Shown here piece after piece: positions 46,409-48,324 of a stretch of DNA of 64,000 nucleotides (position 1 is the first letter of the stretch; each line of letters opens with the position of its first letter). A model generated the notes under the pieces. It did no database searches. It was not told the DNA's origin and saw only the letters and a list, made by a program, of their open reading frames with translations. The DNA lies in contig DXGM01000011.1 in NCBI GenBank assembly GCA_019113915.1, positions 1-64,000 on the forward strand. The letters run 5' to 3'. The translations under genes were made by a program, and so were the position numbers. The stretch comes from Candidatus Gordonibacter avicola. GTDB lineage: Bacteria > Actinomycetota > Coriobacteriia > Coriobacteriales > Eggerthellaceae.

Positions 46409-47752
46409 GTGATCAACCGCTACACGCGCCCCGCGATGGGGGCCATCTGGGAGCTGCAAAACAAGTTCGAAATTTGGAAGGAAATTGAGGTTCTGGCGTG
46501 CGAGGCGCAGGCTGAGCTGGGCAAATCCGGCATCACGAAGGAAGAAGCTGCGTGGATTCGCGAGCACGCCAACTTCACCGTGGAGCGCATCGATGAGATT
46601 GAGAAGGTGACGAACCACGACGTCATCGCCTTCACCACGAACATGGCCGAGTACATTGACGCCGATATTCCGGAGGGCACCGAGCCGCCGAGTCGCTGGG
46701 TGCACTACGGCATGACGTCGTCCGACTTGGGCGACACGGCGCTGTCCTACCAGATCACGCAAGCTATCGACATCATTCTGGAAGACATCAAGCAGCTGGG
46801 CGAAACCTGCAAGCGCCGCGCATTTGAGTTCCAAGAAACGTTGTGCGTGGGCCGTACGCACGGAATTCACGCTGAGCCTATGACGTTCGGCATGAAGTTC
46901 GGCAGCTGGGCCTGGGCGCTCAAGCGCGCGCAAACGCGCATGGAAGAAGCGCGCAAGGTGGCCGCCACCGGCGCTATTTCGGGTGCGGTGGGAACGTATT
47001 CCAGCATCGACCCGTTTGTGGAGCAGTACGTGTGCGAGAAAATGGGCCTCACGCCCGATCCGCTGTCCACGCAGGTGCTTGCGCGCGACCGTCATGCCCA
47101 GGTCATGGCTGGCCTCGCGGTGACAGCCTCCACGCTGGAGAGCATCGCCATGCAGGTGCGCCTGCTGCAGCAGTCCGACGTCATCGAGGCTGAAGAGCCG
47201 TTCGCGAAGGGCCAGAAGGGGAGTAGCGCCATGCCGCACAAGCGCAACCCCATCACAGCCGAACGCGTGTGTGGCCTGGCTCGCGTGGTGAAGAGCAACG
47301 CGCAGGTGGCGTTCGACGACGTGGCGCTGTGGTATGAACGCGACATCAGCCACTCCGGTGCCGAGCGCGTGGCGCTGGCCGACAGCTTCATCGCGCTGGA
47401 CTACATGTTCGGCAAGATGCAGTGGATGCTCGACGGTTTGCAAACCTACCCGGCCAAGATGGAGCACAACCTATGGCGCACGCGTGGCCTGATTTTCAGT
47501 TCGAAGGTGCTGCTAGCGCTGGTGGATACGGGCATCAGCCGCGAGGACGCCTACGTTATCGTGCAGCGCAACGCCATGAAGGTGTGGGAAGACATCCAGA
47601 ACGCCGTGGACGGCCCCACGTACCGCGAAAACCTTGAGGCCGATCCCGAGGCGAATCTTAGCAAAGAAGTGCTCGACGAAATTTTCGACCCTTGGGATTT
47701 CCTCACCCGTAAAGATGTCGTGTTCGACCGCCTGAAAGCCCTAGAATTCTAA
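46409..47752 (+). CDS. purB: Adenylosuccinate lyase
   Basis: 447 aa, GTG start behind AGAGGAAAGGG. It catalyses two steps of purine synthesis: SAICAR to AICAR plus fumarate, and adenylosuccinate to AMP plus fumarate. The fumarase/aspartase-superfamily signature GSSAMPHKRNP is exact. HYGMTSSDLGDTAL and VGRTHGIHAEPMTFG (catalytic His) are present. It lies within 5-8 kb of purC and purL but is not in the same transcription unit. TATAGT at 46368-46373 may be its -10. Confidence 0.95.
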   Translation: MINRYTRPAMGAIWELQNKFEIWKEIEVLACEAQAELGKSGITKEEAAWIREHANFTVERIDEIEKVTNHDVIAFTTNMAEYIDADIPEGTEPPSRWVHYGMTSSDLGDTALSYQITQAIDIILEDIKQLGETCKRRAFEFQETLCVGRTHGIHAEPMTFGMKFGSWAWALKRAQTRMEEARKVAATGAISGAVGTYSSIDPFVEQYVCEKMGLTPDPLSTQVLARDRHAQVMAGLAVTASTLESIAMQVRLLQQSDVIEAEEPFAKGQKGSSAMPHKRNPITAERVCGLARVVKSNAQVAFDDVALWYERDISHSGAERVALADSFIALDYMFGKMQWMLDGLQTYPAKMEHNLWRTRGLIFSSKVLLALVDTGISREDAYVIVQRNAMKVWEDIQNAVDGPTYRENLEADPEANLSKEVLDEIFDPWDFLTRKDVVFDRLKALEF

Positions 47753-47760
47753 GGAACGCG

Positions 47761-47786
47761 TGCTATAATATCAATGTCAGCGATGC
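47761..47786 (+). promoter_or_regulatory. Extended -10 promoter and 5' end of a short plus-strand RNA
   Basis: TGC-TATAAT (47761-47769), six bases, then GTCAGCGATGC (47776-47786). The same layout occurs on the minus strand at 48024-47999. Confidence 0.6.
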
Positions 47787-47862
47787 CCGTGGTTCTGAAA
47801 ACGCTGTACGGGCGACGCATTAAGTTCGGGATCGGTAGTTGCCGCTACCGATCCTTCTTTTG
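47776..47862 (+). ncRNA. Predicted ~85-nt RNA, candidate antitoxin RNA
   Basis: The RNA would run from just after the extended -10 to the hairpin GGATCGGTAG / CTACCGATCC with its TTCTTTT tail. It contains an inner hairpin (GCCCGT / ACGGGC). It has no convincing ORF with a ribosome-binding site. It overlaps the 3' end of the 36-codon minus-strand ORF. This is a prediction from layout only. Confidence 0.5.
47829..47860. terminator. Shared hairpin terminator of the convergent pair
   Basis: Perfect 10-bp stem GGATCGGTAG / CTACCGATCC, loop TTGCCG. A T-rich tail on the plus strand makes it a good terminator there. On the minus strand no T run follows. The TAG stop of the small ORF lies inside the stem. 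Confidence 0.75.
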
Positions 47863-47955
47863 CTTAATGGGCACTCTCCCTAACACGAGAACGATAACGT
47901 CCAAGGCGAACGAACCTATAGTGCAGCAAGCTGCAAGTACGAATAGGATGTCCAT
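47845..47955 (-). CDS. 36-aa hydrophobic small protein, candidate type I toxin
   Basis: The ORF encodes MDILFVLAACCTIGSF, continuing ALDVIVLVLGRVPIKQKKDR. It has one membrane helix of about 25 residues, then a Pro and a strongly basic tail. The start has a near-perfect ribosome-binding site (AAAGGAGGTG, 6 bases before the ATG), rare for a chance ORF. It has its own extended -10 (TGT-TAAAAT) and faces a short convergent RNA. Size, topology and layout resemble Fst/Ldr/TxpA-type membrane toxins of type I toxin-antitoxin systems. No sequence match is claimed. Alternatively it is an ordinary small membrane protein. Confidence 0.6.
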   Translation of the reverse strand: MDILFVLAACCTIGSFALDVIVLVLGRVPIKQKKDR

Positions 47956-47998
47956 GACGACCACCTCCTTTCGGAAGCGTCGCCCCAGGTTCAATCGA

Positions 47999-48024
47999 GC
48001 ATCGCTGACCCATTTATTTTAACA
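47999..48024 (-). promoter_or_regulatory. Extended -10 promoter of the 36-aa ORF
   Basis: On the minus strand TGT-TAAAAT, six bases, then GTCAGCGATGC, mirroring the plus-strand promoter at 47761. Confidence 0.55.
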
Positions 48025-48324
48025 ATTCAAACCCACTTTTAAAAGACACTATTTTCCCAGTTCAATACCCATTTTTGCGCTTGATTTCTGTTAGATTTCC
48101 ACTTGATTCGCGCTTGATTTTCGTAAGGTTGCAAGCCAAAAGTAAGATTACCTAACAGATCAATTTATCATAGTGAGCAACGAAAGGCAGCTCGATTGGC
48201 GAAGGGGATGGGGGTGCGCCGCGAGTTCCGCACGAGCCGGATAGCCCAGTGGGCTATCCGTGCGAGCTCAGGACTGCCCGAGCGCCGTACCTCCCGACCC
48301 CAACGCACCGAAGCGGGCAGGTCC
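48025..48324. other. Gene-free stretch: AT-rich half, then strong hairpins
   Basis: 48025-48180 is AT-rich without clear features. 48238-48260 is a perfect hairpin (CGGATAGCCC-AGT-GGGCTATCCG). A second long-range stem pairs AGGAC-TGCCCG (48271) with CGGGCA-GGTCCT (48314-48325), ending at the stop of the Tat-anchored gene. They probably form its structured 3' end. Confidence 0.5.

Follow-up and report, generated by a model that had tools for sequence, protein, structure and literature searches.

In the type I toxin-antitoxin pairs TxpA/RatA and BsrG/SR4, a small membrane toxin is encoded opposite a convergent antitoxin RNA that overlaps the toxin mRNA at its 3' end. The same arrangement, a small membrane toxin with a convergent antitoxin RNA overlapping at the 3' end, is reported for the Clostridioides difficile pair CD0977.1-RCd11 in the available portion of its description (PMC7699646). 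The par/Fst system of the Enterococcus plasmid pAD1 and its relatives, as far as the accessible part of PMC7472228 describes it, has convergent promoters, a short hydrophobic peptide with a charged tail, a Shine-Dalgarno stem-loop and two RNAs overlapping at a terminator hairpin. According to a 2025 paper, reports of type I systems had been confined to Proteobacteria, Firmicutes and Tenericutes until its own cyanobacterial case was added (PMC12390103, in the part available). Here we describe a candidate toxin-antitoxin locus in a 64,000-nucleotide stretch of DNA from Candidatus Gordonibacter avicola (family Eggerthellaceae, order Coriobacteriales; assembly GCA_019113915.1, contig DXGM01000011.1), hereafter the window. 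The locus resembles par/Fst in all the features just listed and consists of two small convergent genes, one for a 36-amino-acid peptide with a membrane-type stretch, likely a toxin, and one for a predicted silencing RNA. Our modelling suggests, with a probability of about 0.4, that it is a chromosomal type I-like module in which the antitoxin RNA serves as a decoy copy of the 5' leader of the toxin mRNA.

Alignment of the loci shows that the peptide gene and the predicted convergent RNA gene with its terminator share a two-box leader (boxes A and B), both here and across the family. The sequence-only reading had described facing extended -10 promoters of identical layout, two shared 5' blocks that form inverted repeats so that both RNAs start alike, an open reading frame (ORF) with a ribosome site, and a hairpin containing the toxin stop codon. 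All of these are present, with the stop codon in the 3' arm of the hairpin, and the layout recurs in relatives. The longest inverted word, of 11 nt, is reached in 4 of 2000 dinucleotide shuffles of positions 47753-48030, and the two collinear inverted words, 20 nt summed, in none of the 2000. The layout is recovered in 72 of 89 loci of the same family, where at least 17 of 23 leader positions match in inverted orientation; only 2 of 89 do so in direct orientation, and shuffled leaders reach this score in 0.62% of cases. Of the two orientations of the downstream sequence, the inverted one aligns better to the toxin leader in 81/89. The 89 loci were hand-chosen from 119 candidate small ORFs, 30 being dropped as alternative starts or as ORFs unlike the profile, and since the candidate listing also displayed the longest shared word this choice was not blind. 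Boxes A and B were placed ungapped and are misplaced in some loci (e.g. L003, L005, L119 and L138); the leader statistics use the 72 loci with a score of at least 17 of 23. The layout also occurs in other families of the order, where 13 of 15 places were inspected: 11 share the leader, one lacks it, and in one the antitoxin side is masked. An exact leader pattern retrieves 17 stretches among 84,980 species genomes, all with titles naming Eggerthellaceae or one of its genera Adlercreutzia, Enterorhabdus or Rubneribacter. A phage origin was considered and set aside, as the exact pattern is found in 0 viral-contig stretches, although it is narrow and would miss the window's own variant too.

The differences between the two leader copies are one-sided. 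In most loci box A reads GCCCG in the antitoxin and GTCCG in the toxin leader, or CCCCG versus CTTCG. Distinct differences in the 72 loci comprise 102 with toxin G against antitoxin A or toxin T against antitoxin C, 15 of the reverse kind and 33 transversions. After clustering of the loci into 28 groups, the recount gives 35 versus 10 reverse at box A positions 2-10 (24 transversions), 15 versus 2 at positions 7-9, where the local stem leaves the bases unpaired (7 transversions), and 19 versus 3 in box B (4 transversions). The loci kept apart, 15 in number and including five further copies from the window's genome, yield 28 versus 5 with 12 transversions, and 16 versus 4 outside the box A core, when the two that score below 16 are left out of the count. 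Such differences are those that G-U pairs tolerate, as pairing of the toxin leader with the antitoxin leader's complement would predict. As RNA, this complement would exist only in the 3' tail of a read-through toxin transcript. The bias also bears on the idea that the repeats are DNA operators, or leftovers of an inverted duplication of promoter and leader without any RNA role, and that the ORF encodes a harmless small membrane protein. In its favor, the repeats start immediately downstream of both -10 elements, and small membrane peptides are not always toxic. This explanation predicts no strand bias, however, where a strong one is seen, and the copies stay matched across divergent subfamilies and families; we consider it quite unlikely. 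Plain inverted duplication, one of three ideas on the shared leaders in the sequence-only reading besides co-regulation and dimer formation, likewise does not explain the strand-biased, wobble-compatible differences, and we propose pairing with the mRNA's own 3' tail instead.

The leaders of a locus also co-vary. Within the largest subfamily (53 loci) a locus's own antitoxin leader has a mean rank of 0.134 where 0.5 is expected, with 0 of 2000 permutations as high, and cognate co-variation is also found in 21 MDTQ-type loci. Cognate preference was also examined for silencing by kissing loops, in which a leader loop of the antitoxin RNA would meet the toxin leader or ribosome site. The window offers suitable loops, GGUUC in one RNA and GAACC in the other, yet the 72 loci show no cognate preference, permutations being as good in 215/2000 for the loop and 282/2000 for the whole 5' domain, which makes this mode of action very improbable. 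Binding of the antitoxin leader straight to the toxin ribosome site was rejected as well, with no cognate preference in the 72 loci.

The shared hairpin is asymmetric. At least 5 T in the 8 nt after it are found on the antitoxin strand in 39 of 86 loci and on the toxin strand in 1 of 86 (means 4.1 and 1.5); the counts cover the 86 loci with a hairpin found, and the hairpin caller picked the wrong hairpin in some of them. The hairpin therefore looks like a terminator on the antitoxin strand only, judged by these T-runs, and because the T-run is missing on the toxin strand we infer read-through of toxin transcripts. In the window the antitoxin hairpin is strong and T-rich on its 3' side, and its fold exceeds shuffles (z -6.62 for the terminator alone and -3.77 for the antitoxin-side RNA). 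The proposal of a convergent type I-like system is well supported by conservation, as peptide, leaders, promoters and terminator recur, some relatives keep only the antitoxin and 4/4 congeners are without the locus at this site; a common, bidirectional terminator of the par/Fst kind is not supported by the T-run counts.

Leader and tail pair over at least 8 bases in the predicted fold of 69/72 read-through mRNAs. The mean predicted opening energy of the ribosome site is 13.5 kcal/mol without a tail and 8.7 kcal/mol with it, compared to 12.9 kcal/mol with a shuffled and 13.1 kcal/mol with a reverse-complemented tail. The tail lowers the energy by more than 1 kcal/mol in 66/72 loci and raises it in one, with a median change of -4.3 kcal/mol. 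For the loci kept apart it is lowered by more than 1 in 10/15 and is nearly unchanged in the rest. By duplex energy, the tail is predicted to bind more strongly to the antitoxin leader than to the toxin leader in 72/72. In the mechanism that we propose, toxin transcripts that stop early would keep the ribosome site closed, box B being held in a hairpin with the Shine-Dalgarno region. Read-through transcripts would carry the complement of the antitoxin gene as a 3' tail, which could pair with the 5' boxes A and B and so free the ribosome site. The antitoxin RNA, having the better-matching copy of the leader, would capture the tail, whereupon box B would reclose the ribosome site and RNase III could attack the duplex of antitoxin RNA and tail. 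If no fresh antitoxin RNA were supplied, the peptide would be made and the membrane harmed. The same pairing could instead form an inhibitory 5'-3' panhandle, so that translation would begin only after 3' trimming, as described for AapA and hok mRNAs. An inhibitory long-distance interaction is described for AapA in the available part of PMC6733600, and the leader-tail pairing in 69/72 folds would suit a panhandle; the predicted effect is the opposite, however, as the ribosome site opens more easily with the tail in 66/72, and we think a panhandle unlikely.

Both leaders can also fold locally. Among 32 aligned antitoxin RNAs, boxes A and B are paired in 94.5% of cells (34-52% when slid); the stem is mostly invariant, which limits co-variation there, whereas the terminator stem shows compensatory changes at all ten pairs. 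In the consensus of 39 toxin leaders this A-B stem is again predicted, with a hairpin covering the Shine-Dalgarno sequence after it (columns 32-36 with 48-52); in single-sequence folds that hairpin often reaches into box B instead. These structures suit ordinary 3' antisense control. Cleavage would then be triggered by pairing of the antitoxin RNA with the 3' end of the toxin mRNA that it overlaps, and the leader repeat would be a shared A-B stem-loop at the 5' end that stabilizes or marks both RNAs, for instance for one protein. The A-B pairing in the antitoxin RNA, its possible counterpart in the toxin leader and the co-varying terminator stem all favor such control. It gives no reason, however, for one-sided wobble-compatible differences, least of all at positions 7-9 with their locally unpaired bases. 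We regard it as a possible, if somewhat doubtful, explanation.

Several observations weigh against the decoy-leader reading. The bias is weak at box A positions 2-6 (20 versus 8, with 15 transversions, in the 28 clusters), and each test contains 4-28 transversions among 24-69 differences, which fit no pairing. Two subfamilies, MDSF (8 loci, p 0.12) and MELL (6 loci, p 0.80), show no significant co-variation. The window's own toxin leader folds no better than shuffles (z -0.66). The mean probability that the Shine-Dalgarno sequence is unpaired rises only from 0.06 to 0.18 with the tail, with a gain above 0.2 in 21/72 and a drop in 2, so that the switch is partial in the predictions. The binding advantage of the antitoxin leader is partly built in, because the tail is its exact complement, and no terminator was found for the longer read-through transcript. 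Finally, because boxes A and B also pair locally in both RNAs, their conservation may in part reflect a common structural motif.

Table 1. Features of the candidate locus in window coordinates; positions on the minus strand are mostly given in reading direction.
Feature	Position	Strand	Basis and remarks
Extended -10 of antitoxin RNA, TGCTATAAT	47761-47769	+	Sequence; followed by six bases; -10-like element in 69/72 relatives
Antitoxin leader box A, GTCAGCGATGCCCG	47776-47789	+	Copy of toxin box A
Antitoxin leader box B, GGGCGACGC	47810-47818	+	Copy of toxin box B; pairs with box A in antitoxin RNA
Antitoxin terminator hairpin	47829-47854	+	Toxin stop codon in 3' arm; TTCTTTTG comes next
Predicted antitoxin RNA	47776-47862	+	Covariance model match, fold z -3.77; the window sequence is 1 of 32 used to build the model
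Extended -10 of toxin RNA, TGTTAAAAT	48024-48016	-	Sequence; followed by six bases; -10-like element in 63/72 relatives
Toxin leader box A, GTCAGCGATGCTCG	48009-47996	-	Predicted RNA start
Toxin leader box B, GGGCGACGC	47985-47977	-	Also outer arm of predicted ribosome-site hairpin
Predicted hairpin masking Shine-Dalgarno	47956-47984	-	Folding; for this locus alone z -0.66, no stronger than shuffles
Shine-Dalgarno GGAGG	47968-47964	-	Sequence
Toxin ORF, 36 amino acids and stop	47955-47845	-	Hydrophobic peptide with basic tail, predicted toxin; relatives found
Predicted 3' tail of read-through toxin mRNA	47776-47818	-	Complementary to own leader and antitoxin leader; read-through inferred

A -10-like element (score at least 8; background mean 5.1) lies at most 13 bases upstream of box A in 63/72 toxin and 69/72 antitoxin leaders. 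The antitoxin element scores higher in 57 of the 72 loci, equally in 8 and lower in 7, which fits an excess of antitoxin RNA. A scan of the whole window against Rfam gives only a tRNA above the gathering score, and near the locus three sub-threshold matches (E 1.3-4.3).

A search with the 36-amino-acid peptide alone returns a single clear relative, at 59% identity (E 1e-6), along with weaker matches within the family. In this closest relative, L002, the toxin frame stays open past the usual stop for about 50 codons, either as a real extension or through a frame difference. With a profile of 19 peptides, matches at E up to 1 occur in 105/138 genomes of the family, many of them weak and at chance level; at E up to 0.001 they are found in 48/297 genomes of the order, 14 of these outside the family. 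The window's genome itself encodes six ORFs of this peptide type. Four of 25 database matches are named, all as hypothetical protein. Membership in a known toxin family was considered and rejected: the window peptide has zero Pfam or NCBIfam matches, and the 19 relatives give only isolated weak ones (Padloc was not searched). At E up to 1 these relatives match 12 families, among which there is no Fst. The best match is to SecE, from a single member (Pfam E 0.0016; NCBIfam E 7.7e-4). In PHROG, three of four peptides match at E 0.06-0.08, one of them to a holin profile.

The covariance model of the antitoxin RNA matches in 52/138 genomes, in part at places without a toxin that the profile recognizes. 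We picked 24 such orphan hits by eye for scoring (L217, L218, L220, L222 and L232 are outside the scored set): 8 have another small membrane ORF in place and 16 have none that we found, 4 of these 16 lying near contig ends. Five loci (L233, L235, L239, L240 and L241) combine these leaders and this antitoxin RNA with quite different peptide sequences, which would suit an exchangeable toxin. The end of the antitoxin gene is adjoined by the toxin-side promoter sequence in L237 and L251, as after internal loss. Retention of an antitoxin without its toxin is the pattern expected of a harmful peptide and is suggestive here, although chance gene loss would look alike. Antitoxin-like RNAs of a different setting, L061 (G000:C49:91736-91818) and L063, lie opposite the 3' end of longer membrane-protein genes and not of a small toxin gene.

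The window belongs to a genome of 3.08 Mb, in which it is contig 45, and the locus directly follows purB. The sequence after purB is without the locus in 4/4 congeners; in one of them (G068) the same neighboring gene ends 110 bases from purB, compared to 568 in the window. As the locus is missing at the same site in congeners, it appears to come and go. The end of purB lies 9 bases before the antitoxin -10 element (47752-47761), with no purB terminator of its own here, so the purB transcript may enter the antitoxin RNA and stop at the antitoxin terminator. By eye, a terminator-like hairpin follows purB in at least 3 congeners. On the other side, four direct repeats spaced 11 bp (around AATCAAG, minus strand) occupy 48074-48130, 65-120 bases upstream of the toxin start site, and genes for an OmpR-type response regulator and a sensor kinase lie nearby at about 49.7-52.4 kb, according to our reading of the ORFs. 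The repeats could be binding sites of this regulator. A similar 11-bp periodicity occurs upstream of 3 of the 88 other kept loci. A perfect 11-bp inverted repeat with a 1-nt gap (48238-48260) lies in the long intergenic stretch to the right of the locus.

The general type I layout, a gene for a small hydrophobic peptide overlapped by an antisense RNA gene at the stop codon and terminator, is found in the window and its relatives. TxpA/RatA, BsrG/SR4 and CD0977.1-RCd11 are not known to have an inverted leader repeat. In par/Fst, going by the same portion of its description, the shared blocks are direct repeats in DNA and the RNAs are complementary there, whereas here they are inverted (72/89 versus 2/89) and the RNAs begin alike. 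The par/Fst terminator is described there as bidirectional; here the T-run is mainly on the antitoxin side. Our peptides also match no known type I toxin family. In hok/sok, long-distance pairing keeps the ribosome site inaccessible until 3' trimming undoes it. The same is described for aapA/IsoA of Helicobacter in the accessible text of PMC6733600. In contrast to both, the pairing here is predicted to open the ribosome site and involves a tail antisense to the antitoxin gene. The msoT1/msoA1 pair of Microcystis is likewise a type I-like module outside the classical phyla, in a different phylum (PMC12390103, available part). In the literature searched, judged by titles and the starts of abstracts, we found no description of a type I system in Coriobacteria, Eggerthella or Actinobacteria. 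Type I systems would gain a wider range through a broad family in gut Actinomycetota, of which one genome has six copies. Gordonibacter and Eggerthella are now transformable, according to the part available of PMC9734109, and the decoy-leader proposal is directly testable. We tentatively suggest, from the modelling described above, a previously undescribed logic in which a read-through tail switches the toxin mRNA on and a leader-mimicking antitoxin steals that tail, in what would be the first type I-like family of Actinomycetota, order-wide and with several unrelated peptides. If this is true, a leader-copy antitoxin would represent a new action of antisense RNA, one that competes for a cis-acting switch rather than masking the ribosome site.
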